A stretch of 35,609 bases of DNA from a virus: positions 1 to 35,609 of IMG/VR virus record IMGVR_UViG_3300028025_001393. One strand, 5' to 3'. Below are positions 2,198 to 28,466 of the stretch, in pieces. Position 1 is the first letter of the stretch. Each line of letters begins with the position of its first letter. Under the pieces are notes generated by a model. The model had not been told where the DNA came from. It saw nothing but the letters and a program-made list of their open reading frames with translations, and did not search any database. The position numbers and the translations under genes are program-made.

Positions 2198-4300
2198 ATG
2201 ATGGACGAAGGCACAATTAAAGGCATTATCGAGAATGAGATTGATAACTCGATAGGCTATCTTGACACCGAAACTACAGAAGATCGTCGTAGAGCGTTAG
2301 AGTATTACTTACGCAATCCTTACGGTAATGAGCAGGAAGGTCGCAGCCAGATCGTCACAGGTGAGGTAGCTGAAGCCATTGATGGTGCATTGCCACAATT
2401 GATCCGCGTATTCACTACTACTGAGGATATTGTCTACTTTGAGCCTAAAGGCCCGAAGGATGAGGAGACAGCTAAACAGGCTACGGATTACTGTAACTGG
2501 GCTTTCTATCGTGACAATGATGGGATGCTTATCCTACATAACTGGTTTAAGGACGCACTGCTACAGAAGGTAGGCGTAGTCAAGTCTTACTGGGATGACA
2601 AGGTAGATGTACGCAAGGAAGAATATAAGAATCTGACTGAGGATGAACTGGCATTATTGCTATCGGATCAGTCGCTTAAAGTTGTAAAGCAGGAAATAGA
2701 GTACACAGAGCAGCAAGATATGATGGGCAATATCATTCAGATACCATCGTATGAAGTGTATGTACAGCGCACAGAAGAATCAGGTAGCGTAAAGATTGAG
2801 AACGTACCGCCTGAAGAATTCCTAATATCCAAGTCTGCTCGTAACATTGAGGAGTCTAACTTTGTAGCGCATCGTCGCTTGATGACTCGTAGTGAGTTGA
2901 TCGCTATGGGATTCGATAAGGATATTGTCGAGGACTTAGCGACTTATAACGATCTTGAGTTCAGTCCTGAGCGTATTGCACGTTTCCCTAATGGTGAGCA
3001 GCCAGACCAGAATACTAGCCTAGACCAGGCTATGCAGACACTTGAGGTATACGAGTGCTATATACGCATAGATGAGGATGATGACGGTATTGCTGAGTTG
3101 CGTCGCATTATCTATTGTGGCTCAGAGATACTCGAGGATGAGGAGTGTGACTACATCCCGTTCCACTCTATCTGCCCGATACCTATTCCGCATAAGTTCT
3201 TTGGTCAGTCATTGGCTGATCGGACTATGGACATCCAGTTACAGAAGTCCACGATTACGCGTCAGAGCTTGGATAACCTGTATCTAACTAACAACAGTCG
3301 TGTTGGTGCGGTTGATGGTCAGGTCAATATGGATGACTTGCTTAATGCGACTCCTGGTGGTGTTATCCGCTTAAAGAATCCTAATGCTTTGGTTCCACTA
3401 ACGGTACAGAGTACGTTTAGCCAGGCTATGCCGATGCTGGAATACTTGGACTCGGTACAAGCCAAGAGAACAGGCGTTAATGATGCACAACAAGGGCTTG
3501 ATCCAGACGTATTGAACAATGTAACGGCTACTGCTGTGGCTGCCATGATGAAATCTAACTCTGGCAAGCTGGAGTTGATCGCTCGTATATTTGCTGAGAC
3601 AGGTGTTAAGAGCTTGTTTAAGGGCATCTTGCATCTATTGGGCAAGTATCAGGATAAGCCTCGTGTCGTTCGGATGCGTGGTAAGTATGTTACGTTTGAC
3701 CCACGTACATGGGCTAATGAGTACGATATTAGCGTCAATGTTGGTTTAGGTTCGGGTGACCGAGAGCAGAAGTTAGCTATGTTACAGATGGTATTAGCCA
3801 AGCAGGAGCAGATCATTCAGCAGTATGGTCCATCTAATCCACTGGTATCGATTGGTCAGTATCGCAACACACTAGCGAAGTTCATCGAGTCAGCAGGTTT
3901 CAAAGATGCTAATGAGTTCATGAATGAGATTACACCGGAACAGAACGCGCAATTATCCCAGCCTCAGCCTCCAAGTCCAGATGCGCAAGCAGAGATTGCT
4001 AAGATGCTGGCAGAGGTTGAAAGAGAAAAGACTCAGGCAAAAGCACAGATTGATGCGGCAAAGCTTGACCTTGAGAAGCAAACACTCGAAGCCGAATATA
4101 CCCGTAAAGGTATAGAGATGCAGATGAAGAATCAAAAGGACTCGGCTGAGTTGCGGATTAAAGAGGCTGAGTTAGCAGTTAAGCAATTGCAAGCTGTCCT
4201 GGCTATGGATTTAGCTGACGAAGATACGAAGAATAAGCAGACTGAGCTAACGCTTAAAGCATTACGTGAACTAGGCTCATTGACTAGAGGTATGGCGTGA
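2198..4300 (+). CDS. Portal protein, P22-type
   Basis: Dodecameric portal through which DNA enters the head and to which the tail binds; 700 residues, close to the 725 of P22 gp1. The N-terminal half has aromatic and acidic segments such as NWFKDALLQKVGVVKSYWDD, and the central part has FFGQSLADR and a long conserved stem/wing region. From about residue 590 to the end it is a Gln/Glu/Lys/Ala-rich helix, matching the long barrel of P22-like portals. A TAAGAGGA ribosome-binding site lies 7 bases before the ATG. Its stop overlaps the GTG start of the next gene. Confidence 0.93.
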   Translation: MMDEGTIKGIIENEIDNSIGYLDTETTEDRRRALEYYLRNPYGNEQEGRSQIVTGEVAEAIDGALPQLIRVFTTTEDIVYFEPKGPKDEETAKQATDYCNWAFYRDNDGMLILHNWFKDALLQKVGVVKSYWDDKVDVRKEEYKNLTEDELALLLSDQSLKVVKQEIEYTEQQDMMGNIIQIPSYEVYVQRTEESGSVKIENVPPEEFLISKSARNIEESNFVAHRRLMTRSELIAMGFDKDIVEDLATYNDLEFSPERIARFPNGEQPDQNTSLDQAMQTLEVYECYIRIDEDDDGIAELRRIIYCGSEILEDEECDYIPFHSICPIPIPHKFFGQSLADRTMDIQLQKSTITRQSLDNLYLTNNSRVGAVDGQVNMDDLLNATPGGVIRLKNPNALVPLTVQSTFSQAMPMLEYLDSVQAKRTGVNDAQQGLDPDVLNNVTATAVAAMMKSNSGKLELIARIFAETGVKSLFKGILHLLGKYQDKPRVVRMRGKYVTFDPRTWANEYDISVNVGLGSGDREQKLAMLQMVLAKQEQIIQQYGPSNPLVSIGQYRNTLAKFIESAGFKDANEFMNEITPEQNAQLSQPQPPSPDAQAEIAKMLAEVEREKTQAKAQIDAAKLDLEKQTLEAEYTRKGIEMQMKNQKDSAELRIKEAELAVKQLQAVLAMDLADEDTKNKQTELTLKALRELGSLTRGMA

Positions 4301-21998: not shown

Positions 21999-22171
21999 TA
22001 ATGGCTTTGGTTTTTGTCATTGCTTTGCCTATAGTTGGCATTACGTTAATGGATGCTAATAACGCTACGAATGCTGCGTTGACTGAAGTTAGGCGTATGC
22101 GTGAACTAAGATTACAAATACTGAAGGAAAGAGATGATTACCGTCAGTCAGTTGAAACAACTACTCCCTAA
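21926..22171 (+). CDS. Small single-span membrane protein, holin candidate
   Basis: An 81-residue protein with a charged N-terminus (KRPSDDKDEPHVP), one membrane segment WTLLVCLLVMALVFVIALPI at about 17-36 and a charged C-terminal helix (EVRRMRELRLQILKERDD). It overlaps the preceding gene by 73 bases and the endolysin gene by 38 bases. Its ATG has no strong ribosome-binding site, so it may depend on coupled translation. Size, topology and position fit a pinholin or holin-like protein, but the charge pattern is not decisive. Confidence 0.65.
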   Translation: MASKRPSDDKDEPHVPWTLLVCLLVMALVFVIALPIVGITLMDANNATNAALTEVRRMRELRLQILKERDDYRQSVETTTP

Positions 22172-22754
22172 GAATCCGTATGTCGAGCACTGGCATCATG
22201 CCTTAGAGCAGTTATTCCCCGATTACGATATTAATACGCCTAAACGTATGGCTGCTTTTATCGCTCAATGTGCTCATGAGTCTGGTGGTTTTATGATTCT
22301 TAAAGAGAATCTAAACTATAAGGCTGCGACTCTCCGCAAGATATTCCCTAAGTACTTCCCTAACGATCAAATAGCTCAGGATTACGCATCTCGTCCTAAC
22401 AAGCAGGTTGCCATAGCGTCTAAGGTTTACGCTAACCGTATGGGTAATGGCGATGAGGCTAGCCAAGAGGGGTGGAAATTTTGCGGACGAGGATTAATCC
22501 AGCTTACTGGCAAGTCTAACTATCAAGCGTTTGCAGACTCGTTAGAGATGAACATTAACGATGTACCAGAGTATCTAGCCACGTTTGAAGGTGCTGCTCA
22601 GTCTGCTTGCTGGTTTTGGGAGACGAATAAGCTAAATCAATGGGCTGATGCTGGTGACATTCTTACGCTAACGAAACGTATTAACGGAGGCACAATTGGA
22701 CTTGAAGATCGTAAGAAACATTATGAGCACGCTCTTCATGTGCTTGGTGCTTAG
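22134..22754 (+). CDS. Endolysin, glycoside hydrolase family 19
   Basis: A 206-residue lysin that cleaves the peptidoglycan glycan chain. GH19 signatures are clear: AQCAHESGGF with catalytic Glu49, CGRGLIQLTGKSNY at about 112-125, and TKRINGGTIGLEDRKKHY near the end. It has no signal peptide, so it would need a holin to reach the wall. An AAGGAA lies 5 bases before the ATG. Its 3' end contains the start of a lipoprotein gene. Confidence 0.94.
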   Translation: MITVSQLKQLLPKNPYVEHWHHALEQLFPDYDINTPKRMAAFIAQCAHESGGFMILKENLNYKAATLRKIFPKYFPNDQIAQDYASRPNKQVAIASKVYANRMGNGDEASQEGWKFCGRGLIQLTGKSNYQAFADSLEMNINDVPEYLATFEGAAQSACWFWETNKLNQWADAGDILTLTKRINGGTIGLEDRKKHYEHALHVLGA

Positions 22755-25861: not shown

Positions 25862-26100
25862 AATTTCTCACCATTATTCTCAGTAATTGCATTCATATTT
25901 TGCAGTGCAGCATTACGATACAACTTTGCCATAAGAGTCTTAACGTCAGCAGCTTGCCCTGATTGATTCTTATAAATGCTTTCCGTCTTATGCTCTGAGC
26001 ATGGCTTACACATCCAGCGACCACTAGTACGAGTCTTGCGGAATACTCCACCTTCTATTTCTCTTGTGCACTGGCAACTAGTACAGAATTTAGTATTCAT
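25858..26100 (-). CDS. Small zinc-finger-like protein
   Basis: An 80-residue protein with two CxxC pairs, FCTSCQC (Cys6 and Cys9) and WMCKPCSEH (Cys31 and Cys34), spaced as in a zinc ribbon. The rest is polar. It overlaps neighbouring genes by 4 bases on each side. It may bind nucleic acid; nothing more can be said. Confidence 0.7.
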   Translation of the reverse strand: MNTKFCTSCQCTREIEGGVFRKTRTSGRWMCKPCSEHKTESIYKNQSGQAADVKTLMAKLYRNAALQNMNAITENNGEKL

Positions 26101-26291
26101 TTACATATTCTTTCTTTGGCTTCTTTAATATTAGAGTTCATTAACCAAGAGGCACACTGAGAATCCACAGCAAGGGCATTAAAACCGTCTCTGTAGCCTT
26201 TTCTATAGGCTTCATTAGCCTTGATAGTAGCTATGTTAGAAAACAGCCATATAGACCCTAAAATAGCCACCATAAATATTAATATTTTCAT
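26097..26291 (-). CDS. Small membrane-anchored protein
   Basis: A 64-residue protein with an N-terminal hydrophobic segment (ILIFMVAILGSIWLFSNIA, about 3-21) that may be a signal anchor, then NEAYRKGYRDGFNALAVD and a short helix with two Cys. The YRKGYRDGF motif appears in small phage proteins with an N-terminal anchor. Overlaps the HTH gene by 4 bases. Confidence 0.68.
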   Translation of the reverse strand: MKILIFMVAILGSIWLFSNIATIKANEAYRKGYRDGFNALAVDSQCASWLMNSNIKEAKERICK

Positions 26292-26479
26292 AATAGCTCA
26301 CGTATTTCCTTCACTGGCATCTCAAACGTCTCATGTATGCGTAGAATCATATCTGCGGAGACACTGACTTTACCGCTACGTATCTTGCTAATCGTAGGGG
26401 GTGGTACGTCCAATTTTCTACTCAGTTCAGCATCATTCTTTACAGAGTAGCGTTCTTTAATAGTGTCGAGCAATTTCAT
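26288..26479 (-). CDS. XRE/Cro-like DNA-binding regulator
   Basis: A 63-residue protein nearly all helix-turn-helix: DAELSRKLDVPPPTISKIRSG carries the two HTH helices (about 16-36), followed by ADMILRIHETFEMPVKEIREL as the last helices of the five-helix XRE fold. A GAGGA lies 5 bases before the ATG. It is the first gene after the terminator at 26494-26519, so it is reached by read-through or its own promoter. Likely controls early transcription. Confidence 0.85.
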   Translation of the reverse strand: MKLLDTIKERYSVKNDAELSRKLDVPPPTISKIRSGKVSVSADMILRIHETFEMPVKEIRELL

Positions 26480-26493
26480 GTGTTCCTCAGAAT

Positions 26494-26519
26494 AAAAAGA
26501 CAGGAGCCGAAGCCCCTGT
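26494..26519 (-). terminator. Intrinsic terminator with UUCG tetraloop
   Basis: Read on the - strand, ACAGGGGC pairs with GCTCCTGT (8 pairs, one G-U) around a TTCG loop closed by C-G, followed by C and TTTTT. It lies directly after the small secreted-peptide gene and before the XRE gene, and would end most - strand transcripts from the promoter at 28437-28466. Confidence 0.85.
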
Positions 26520-26549
26520 TAAAGGCCACGAAGGATAGTGGCTGCGAGA

Positions 26550-26696
26550 TCAGTAGCAGTTAGTTGAGCAACTATTCCCATAACAGCACGTAGTACACGT
26601 TACGTATTGACCGTTATATGAATAGCTATTTGTTGTGCATGAAGCATAAGCAAATGTTGCTGTAAGTGCTAAATAAGCTGCGAGTATGTATTTCAT
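26550..26696 (-). CDS. Small secreted cysteine-rich peptide
   Basis: A 48-residue peptide. AGGAG lies 8 bases before the ATG. MKYILAAYLALTATFAYA is a clear signal peptide with cleavage after AYA, leaving a mature peptide of about 30 residues with seven Cys (SCTTN, VTCTTCCYG, SCSTNCY). It lies between the SSB-like gene and the terminator. Secreted Cys-rich peptides are rare in phage early operons. Function unknown; an exported inhibitor or envelope factor is one guess. Confidence 0.75.
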   Translation of the reverse strand: MKYILAAYLALTATFAYASCTTNSYSYNGQYVTCTTCCYGNSCSTNCY

Positions 26697-26708
26697 AATA
26701 GTTGCTCC

Positions 26709-26963
26709 TCAGAAAGGGATCGAATCGTCAGGATCAGCCGCTACTACAGGCTTATTGATGGGCTTAGGTGCTGCATCACCTTTAGGACGTACCGATAAAC
26801 TAAAGAACTTCTTAGAGTCTTTCTTAGACTCTTTAAGCCAGCCTGAAAGCCAGTAATCAGTACCAGCTACGTTAACGCTACCTGAATAGTCAGGATGATT
26901 CTCAGAAGTTTTATTCTCATTCCGATATAAAACGCCACGGTCAGTATTATCAAATTCAGTCAT
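26709..26963 (-). CDS. SSB-like single-stranded DNA-binding protein candidate
   Basis: An 84-residue protein with a compact beta pattern (NHPDYSGSVNVAGTDYWLSG, then FFSLSVRPKG) that fits a small OB-like fold, and an acidic tail ending DPDDSIPF. That ending closely follows the C-terminal DDxIPF tip of bacterial SSB proteins, which recruits repair and replication partners. It is encoded 2 bases after the ERF gene, a typical recombination pair. The OB fold is inferred, the tail is seen. Confidence 0.75.
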   Translation of the reverse strand: MTEFDNTDRGVLYRNENKTSENHPDYSGSVNVAGTDYWLSGWLKESKKDSKKFFSLSVRPKGDAAPKPINKPVVAADPDDSIPF

Positions 26964-26965
26964 AT

Positions 26966-27628
26966 TTATTTCCCTATTGAAAATTTCTTAATTGCACTAC
27001 GCTCTTTACTATCTAACCTACTCCAAAATGCCGTCTTAGAATCTGCATCAAACTCTTGCGACGTAATGTATTCAACTGCTCCCGCAATATCATCTTTTTT
27101 CAGCAATAGACGCACGTCCATAGCGATGTTTTCAATGATGTCTTTTGTCTCGTCATCCATGCTATTGAATACGTCTACAGTGATAGGCTTTGCTGACTTT
27201 TTTTCATCTACTGGCTCAGAAGAATCAATAGCATCGTGTTCAACGATAGCCATAGCCATGACCAGTAAATAACGCGTAATGTAGGTAATTGATGCGCCAA
27301 GATTTTGGACGGGATGACAACCTTTTAAATTCGCTTCTGCCATAGGGCAAGTGAATTTAGCGCATCCACCATTCTCAACATCGACAATTCGCATTGTTGC
27401 AATTTCGTTAGTAAACTCTAACGTACTGCCTAATTTAAGGTCGTAAAAAATATTATTTACGGTAGGCAAAAAGTCTGCAAGCTCAAAATATCGGTAGCCA
27501 GCAAATTTATTGTGACCTGATTTTTTTAATTCAATTGATTGAAGTTTTACTCTAGCGCGTTGTAGTTTGTCGTAAACAAGCCATTGACGTTGCTCGTGCT
27601 GCTCTTGTAATTGATAGTCGTTATTCAT
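26966..27628 (-). CDS. erf: ERF-family single-strand annealing protein
   Basis: A 220-residue recombinase. The ERF core includes KSGHNKFAGYRYFELADFLP at about 37-56, the conserved HPVQNLGASITYITRYL (105-121, with the GASITY motif) and AMAIVEHDAID (125-135). The C-terminal third is charged and variable, as usual. It anneals single strands in phage recombination or genome circularisation. The SSB-like gene follows immediately, supporting the module. Confidence 0.92.
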   Translation of the reverse strand: MNNDYQLQEQHEQRQWLVYDKLQRARVKLQSIELKKSGHNKFAGYRYFELADFLPTVNNIFYDLKLGSTLEFTNEIATMRIVDVENGGCAKFTCPMAEANLKGCHPVQNLGASITYITRYLLVMAMAIVEHDAIDSSEPVDEKKSAKPITVDVFNSMDDETKDIIENIAMDVRLLLKKDDIAGAVEYITSQEFDADSKTAFWSRLDSKERSAIKKFSIGK

Positions 27629-28418: not shown

Positions 28419-28453
28419 TTGTGTTGCAGCGAAGAAACTATAACGCATCACAA
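28419..28453. promoter_or_regulatory. Inverted repeat flanking the early -10 box, operator candidate
   Basis: TTGTGTTGC (28419-28427) and GCATCACAA (28445-28453) are inverted copies with one mismatch in nine, 17 bases apart, and enclose the -10 element of the - strand promoter. A second short palindrome, TTGT...ACAA (28456-28469), overlaps its -35. The symmetry fits a dimeric repressor site, perhaps for the XRE protein or the divergent 126-residue protein. Confidence 0.45.
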
Positions 28454-28466
28454 ACTTGTATGTCAA
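28437..28466 (-). promoter_or_regulatory. Strong sigma70-type early promoter
   Basis: Read on the - strand, a perfect TTGACA (28461-28466) is followed after 18 bases by TATAGT (28437-28442). It faces the - strand block and lies about 40 bases before its first start codon. This is the clearest promoter in the window. Confidence 0.82.

Follow-up and report, generated by a model that had tools for sequence, protein, structure and literature searches.

A family of small cysteine-rich phage peptides with predicted export and a candidate role in the envelope of the infected cell

The window, that is, the whole stretch of DNA analysed here, is a virus record of 35,609 bases. Its MCP and TerL place it nearest to spring-water phages, and the closest cultured phage is Methylophilales phage Venkman (54.6% for MCP, 64.1% for TerL). 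On the minus strand, the genes for an Erf single-strand annealing protein and an SSB-like protein are followed, closely spaced, by the reading frame of a small peptide, and then by a terminator and a small HTH gene (Table 1). A preliminary description of this DNA had proposed here a 48-residue gene with a ribosome-binding site, and both are indeed present; it had also counted seven cysteines, of which there are only six, at residues 20, 34, 37, 38, 43 and 47, while a related sub-branch has eight. The minus-strand interval 26480-26552 folds with a z of -2.6 against shuffles. A promoter-like site upstream could drive the operon, but the window has no excess of such sites over shuffles (6 against an expected 11.8). 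The gene content (Erf, SSB-like, HTH) suggests that the operon is an early one. Downstream of the HTH gene lies a further minus-strand frame of 64 residues with a hydrophobic N terminus (26097-26291), which is kept, at 60-81% identity, by relatives that have no peptide gene.

Table 1. Features at and around the peptide gene in the window
Feature	Position	Strand	Remarks
Peptide gene, 48 aa, six Cys	26550..26696	(-)	TGA stop 26550-26552
Signal sequence, residues 1-18, A-Y-A end then S-C	26643..26696	(-)	type I cleavage predicted
Mature peptide, 30 residues	26553..26642	(-)	AlphaFold2 and co-variation
Shine-Dalgarno GAGGAG	26705..26710	(-)	overlaps the ssb stop codon, 8 nt before ATG
SSB-like gene, directly upstream of the peptide gene	26709..26963	(-)	PHROG 7364, E 2.6e-15
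Erf single-strand annealing protein	26966..27628	(-)	PF04404 9e-12; phrog_155 1.3e-20
Small HTH regulator, downstream of the terminator	26288..26479	(-)	PF01381, PF07022
Intrinsic terminator, C(UUCG)G hairpin and T tail	26500..26519	(-)	sequence, folding
Small GCCAC/GTGGC hairpin, between peptide stop and terminator	26525..26542	(-)	present in empty-site relatives too
Promoter-like site, could drive the operon	28437..28466	(-)	11/12 positions matched

The peptide gene is real and coding. With 48 codons it falls under the usual length cut-offs, as a frame open by chance might, but that explanation is ruled out by hundreds of relatives and by purifying selection; together with a four-base Shine-Dalgarno match in 121 of 132 distinct loci of the family, these leave it a negligible probability. 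The mature peptide is under purifying selection: its pN/pS is 0.27 (125 distinct DNA sequences, 68 distinct peptides) and its median dN/dS is 0.20 over 1,181 pairs at moderate synonymous distance, while the signal part is under laxer constraint (0.42 and 0.40, respectively). Retrieval covered 159 of 162 loci, L114, L154 and L160 being missed by the search pattern, and the selection set comprises 156 loci, leaving aside L112 and L157, which have a 14-residue spacing, and one 30-residue variant. Residues that are fixed in the family are encoded by several synonymous codons. Invariance of the VTCTTCC motif stems in part from the search patterns themselves, but the codon argument and the cysteines outside the patterns are independent of them.

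This gene belongs to a large unnamed phage family present in hundreds of metagenomic phage contigs. Querying IMG/VR with the window peptide returned 511 matched stretches, 483 of which encode a relative; a wider profile yielded at least 525 among 600 matches listed and a profile led by an eight-cysteine member at least 435 among 599 matches listed, these three sets overlapping one another. Among the 50,697 records of INPHARED, relatives occur only in MW202462 and MW202544, both from Manatee Spring. That such a peptide is unusual for a phage, as had been proposed, thus holds for isolated phages and fails for metagenomic ones. In MW202462 (L082, 817-1059), the peptide frame is open with full signal and motif, and the gene deposited for this place, UOF77143.1, runs along the complementary strand, which is likely a misannotation. 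The habitat appears to be mostly fresh water, judging from the Manatee Spring records and from the IMG study numbers of the family stretches, which we take to be mostly fresh-water. The plasmids searched gave no peptide match. No fitting model exists in Pfam (best value 0.0036, with 23 members searched), PHROG (0.0019) or NCBIfam (0.0087), the best hit in each being an isolated weak match to an unlike family. PADLOC anti-phage defence models matched no family in 15 members, and literature searches returned no publication recognised as describing these peptides.

The first 18 residues have the layout of a signal sequence, with a Lys, a hydrophobic stretch and A-x-A, and what follows is a mature part of about 30 residues, as the preliminary description had it. 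Among 118 distinct signals of the family, 113 end in small-x-A and have a single residue between this motif and the first mature Cys, and in the other 5 the final Ala stands directly before that Cys, so that a type I motif is found by pattern in all 118. Lipoproteins carry a lipobox, of the pattern [LVI][ASTVI][GAS]C, and this pattern occurs in none of the 118. The small-x-A motif and the missing lipobox point to Sec export and cleavage by signal peptidase I rather than to lipidation; this prediction from sequence is well supported, and the reading as a lipoprotein is rejected. A family member in UniProt (A0A6J5M8Q5, from an uncultured Caudovirales phage; 60% identity over 30 residues, TM 0.95) is named 'Lipoprotein', a name that the family's signals do not support; the hit carries no functional annotation. 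The residue before the final Ala is Trp or Tyr in 118 of 118 signals, counting both cut positions.

For the mature part, AlphaFold2 predicts, from an alignment of 70 rows that leaves out one INPHARED row, three strands at residues 2-9, 12-21 and 24-29 (mean pLDDT 91.4; pTM 0.41 for a 30-residue chain). The same strands are obtained with an alignment of 42 rows led by an eight-cysteine member (pLDDT 90.1). The strands are joined by two-residue turns, often N-G and G-N. Such turns set the registers, residue i facing 21-i between strands 1 and 2 and 45-i between strands 2 and 3 (in 29-residue numbering, i+j=19 and 43), and with these registers C2 faces C19, C20 faces C25 and C16 faces C29, which uses all six cysteines. 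A three-stranded antiparallel sheet with three cross-strand disulfides, C2-C19, C16-C29 and C20-C25, is therefore a well-supported prediction, the pairs being read from strand positions in the model.

Co-variation was examined in 102 of 106 variants, all of 29 residues, the four of length 30 being left out; the effective number of sequences is only 13 at 80%, and shared descent can mimic co-variation. Two extra cysteines, at positions 7 and 12 of this numbering (residues 8 and 13 of the window peptide), occur together in 42 variants and are both absent from 60, and neither is ever found singly. These positions face each other in the register of the first hairpin and form the strongest co-varying pair, with and without weighting, and their co-occurrence lends independent support to the predicted register. 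Positions 14 and 29, a facing pair of the second hairpin, change together, from Thr with Phe/Tyr to Tyr with Asn. Between strands 2 and 3, register 43 ranks first; between strands 1 and 2, register 19 has the largest sum and is second by mean to a register of three pairs. It might be argued, from the C-x-x-C-C...C...C spacing, that the cysteines are metal ligands or free thiols instead of disulfide staples. Export to an oxidising compartment speaks against this, as do the pairing of all six cysteines in the predicted registers and the joint appearance of the seventh and eighth at the next facing site, so that metal binding is given very little weight. With conserved signal, conserved cysteines, a compatible fold and a co-varying extra pair, there is strong support for the earlier proposal that the peptide is exported and rich in disulfides, and conservation of the cysteine pattern and of the signal among relatives, the lack of which had been named as what would speak against it, is found for both. 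The PDB fold search gave no match at E<=0.001; the best VIA hit has Z 3.5 and an rmsd of 4.2 over 30 residues, a common three-strand arrangement, and a member of the family in the viral library was the only fold hit that was not a generic sheet.

Short sheets clamped by disulfides bring to mind protegrin and tachyplesin, cationic two-strand beta-hairpin antimicrobial peptides with a cross-strand disulfide ladder. The peptide resembles them in its short, laddered sheet, but it is predicted to be three-stranded and is neutral, the net charge of the mature part being 0 in 55 and +1 in 47 of the 102 variants. This bears on the possibility that the peptide is released by lysis or leakage and acts on other cells, as an antibacterial or a signal. 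Such a role would agree with the export signal and the rigid sheet predicted; on the other hand, the peptide is not cationic in any of the 102 variants, no conserved immunity or receptor partner gene adjoins it, and Sec export would leave the product in the periplasm. A released peptide is accordingly held improbable, and action on competitors, which the preliminary description had considered next to action on the envelope, finds no specific support, while the envelope part of that proposal is plausible.

The surroundings of the gene recur across the family. It stands beside ssb/Erf, ssb/RecT-like, exonuclease or cro-like genes, and the gene directly upstream belongs to the SSB-like cluster in 58 of 160 mapped copies; other upstream genes encode an OB-fold SSB, a Cro-like HTH protein, a 124-residue protein or an exonuclease (cluster names were read from representative sequences, the model scan covering the window's own genes). 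A same-strand upstream neighbour lies within 30 bases in 131 of 143 copies, at a median of 10. Fifty larger peptide contigs were chosen for copy number and integrase: each of the 50 records has one copy, one of them with a second, partial match at its other contig end, and tyrosine integrase PF00589 was found in none of these 50 carrier records, many of them fragments, the control being positive in 14 of 14 genomes. There is thus no sign of temperate carriers. Lysis genes are likewise missing near the peptide, both in the window and in the mapped neighbourhoods, the nearest in the window being a frame read by eye as an endolysin (22134-22754), about 4 kb off. T4 RI, a periplasmic regulator of lysis timing, acts on the holin, and a similar function would suit a small peptide that is predicted to be exported and probably bears disulfides; given the missing lysis genes, it is given only a slim chance.

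Close relatives show that the gene is an accessory cassette with precise empty sites. A comparison of 33 out of 80 loci with a near TerL, many of them on fragments, gave the peptide in just 2, a scarcity that weighs against the role favoured below. Three relatives of 34-38 kb (G790, G789 and G797) have the SSB-like gene (96, 86 and 84% identical, respectively) and the HTH gene but lack the peptide in the interval. In these, the downstream sequence TGATCTCGCAGCC, which in the window starts with the stop codon of the peptide, comes directly or almost directly after the end of ssb, terminator included. G790 retains a short piece resembling the peptide leader, which suggests that the peptide was lost there. 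As empty sites keep it, the terminator must be counted as an element of the ssb operon, with the peptide as the optional insert. The hairpin with UUCG loop and T tail that had been described next to the gene does exist, but it is not a trait of the family, a terminator-like site within 120 nt downstream being found in 3 of 130 family loci and 4 of 471 random windows. The idea of a unit of peptide and terminator is rejected, since the terminator occurs in peptide-free relatives and the two are not linked across the family.

In some loci, namely L261 (12939-13384), L254 (about 1340-1756), L253 and 14 more, a long, repeat-bearing, RNA-like stretch takes up the space from the SSB-like gene to the HTH gene. 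The stretch in L261 has two modules at a spacing of about 82 bases; in L254 the peptide gene lies inside the stretch, and in L253 the stretch comes after the peptide. Scanning three of these 17 loci (L253, L254 and L261) gave no Rfam match at gathering, and the fold energy is not unusual (z -1.27).

Two scans of GTDB genomes brought up one real relative outside phages, L163, of 52 aa, on contig CANHBY010000139.1 of a Burkholderiales MAG. The copy (3527-3685) has the same domain and signal as the window peptide but is set among bacterial genes (MerR, VIT/VWA, WYL-WCX), between the VIT/VWA gene and the WYL-WCX regulator, about 50 bases before the latter. Its GC of 0.56 fits the contig (0.60) and not the window peptide gene (0.37). 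The contig may be misbinned, although the genes flanking the copy on it are bacterial. The first scan, by pattern, confirmed no relative among 61 matches; in the second, 2 of 6 matches were confirmed (L163 and L164), of which L163 alone is real, L164 being read as the zinc-finger region of a DnaJ-like protein. A profile at E<=1e-5 found only G001 itself among 399 order and 398 phylum genomes, and at E<=0.01 it gave 7 matches in 399 family genomes, of which that in G001 is real and the other six (L167-L172) are noise-like on inspection. A widespread bacterial chromosomal family is rejected, as the genome searches gave no second convincing copy.

The peptide's most probable site of action is the envelope of the cell under infection. 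The proposed model is that the pre-peptide would be made early in infection, translated right behind ssb, exported by the Sec system and cut by signal peptidase I, which would remove residues 1-18. Once in the periplasm, where conditions are oxidising, the remaining 30 residues would fold to a sheet clamped by three cross-strand disulfides, with a fourth, between residues 8 and 13, in the sister branch. This small, neutral and probably very stable plate may bind a conserved component of the host envelope and so impede adsorption or injection by another phage. What the analysis demonstrates is the gene with its conservation, position and accessory status; the early timing, the target and the exclusion effect are the conjectural parts of this model. 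Superinfection exclusion is tentatively placed first among the possible roles, by analogy with T5 Llp and Rtp45, and the accessory status and clean empty sites are as expected of a gene for exclusion or host interaction. On the other side, exclusion proteins of that kind fit one receptor; for the peptide, the recombination and regulatory neighbours and the little variation between phage lineages suggest a target more general than a single receptor.

Small disulfide-bearing periplasmic proteins that block a receptor from inside have a precedent in PMC12685063 and PMC9586334, according to which Llp and Rtp45 distort an outer-membrane receptor from within. T5 Llp is described in PMC9586334 as a small exported superinfection exclusion lipoprotein that acts from the periplasm, with 61 residues when mature and a gene adjoining that of its own receptor-binding protein. 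The window peptide, for which export is predicted, is small like this Llp and would act from the same compartment, but it has 30 residues when mature, is predicted to be unlipidated and is not encoded beside a receptor-binding gene, its neighbours being SSB-like, recombination, HTH or Cro-like genes; a search of PDB sequences brought up no relation to Llp. Rtp45 of phage Rtp, according to PMC12685063, is a periplasmic lipoprotein of about 6 kDa with one internal disulfide and a partly beta-stranded hairpin, and it targets LptD. Where Rtp45 as so described has a lipid anchor and a single disulfide, the peptide is predicted to be an unlipidated, fully paired six-cysteine sheet. At most, then, it may resemble the action of these proteins, having no lipid anchor and no receptor-binding neighbour and hardly varying. 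Small exported disulfide-bearing phage proteins are already known as a kind, of which the peptide is a distinct, unlipidated and fully laddered variant.

An effector of host take-over is placed second, as a rather unlikely alternative in which the sheet would inhibit a conserved envelope process and so favour phage production; cell-wall synthesis, outer-membrane assembly, Dsb oxidation or a periplasmic protease would be candidate targets. The mature surface is near-invariant between dissimilar phages and recombination modules, which agrees with a single conserved target in the host, and the placement is of early type. However, the searches found no relative in sequence or fold with such an activity, and the gene is accessory even among close relatives.

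A bolder and distinctly speculative proposal is that the peptides form a class not described before: microproteins that carry no lipid, are fully laddered by disulfides and let phages shut the envelope of their host after entry. They would travel as a clean cassette swapped at the ends of ssb or cro operons and would have been captured at least once by a bacterium, beside the WYL regulator in the Burkholderiales MAG, as its own chromosomal exclusion peptide.

Few phage proteins whose fold can be tested are smaller than this peptide, and its gene is missed by annotation or put on the wrong strand, as in MW202462. Pairs with and without the cassette are ready natural comparisons. If entry or an envelope enzyme is blocked, the peptide would offer a stable scaffold of 30 residues, and, if true, the proposed role would show how phages of uncultured water bacteria defend the cell that they have infected.
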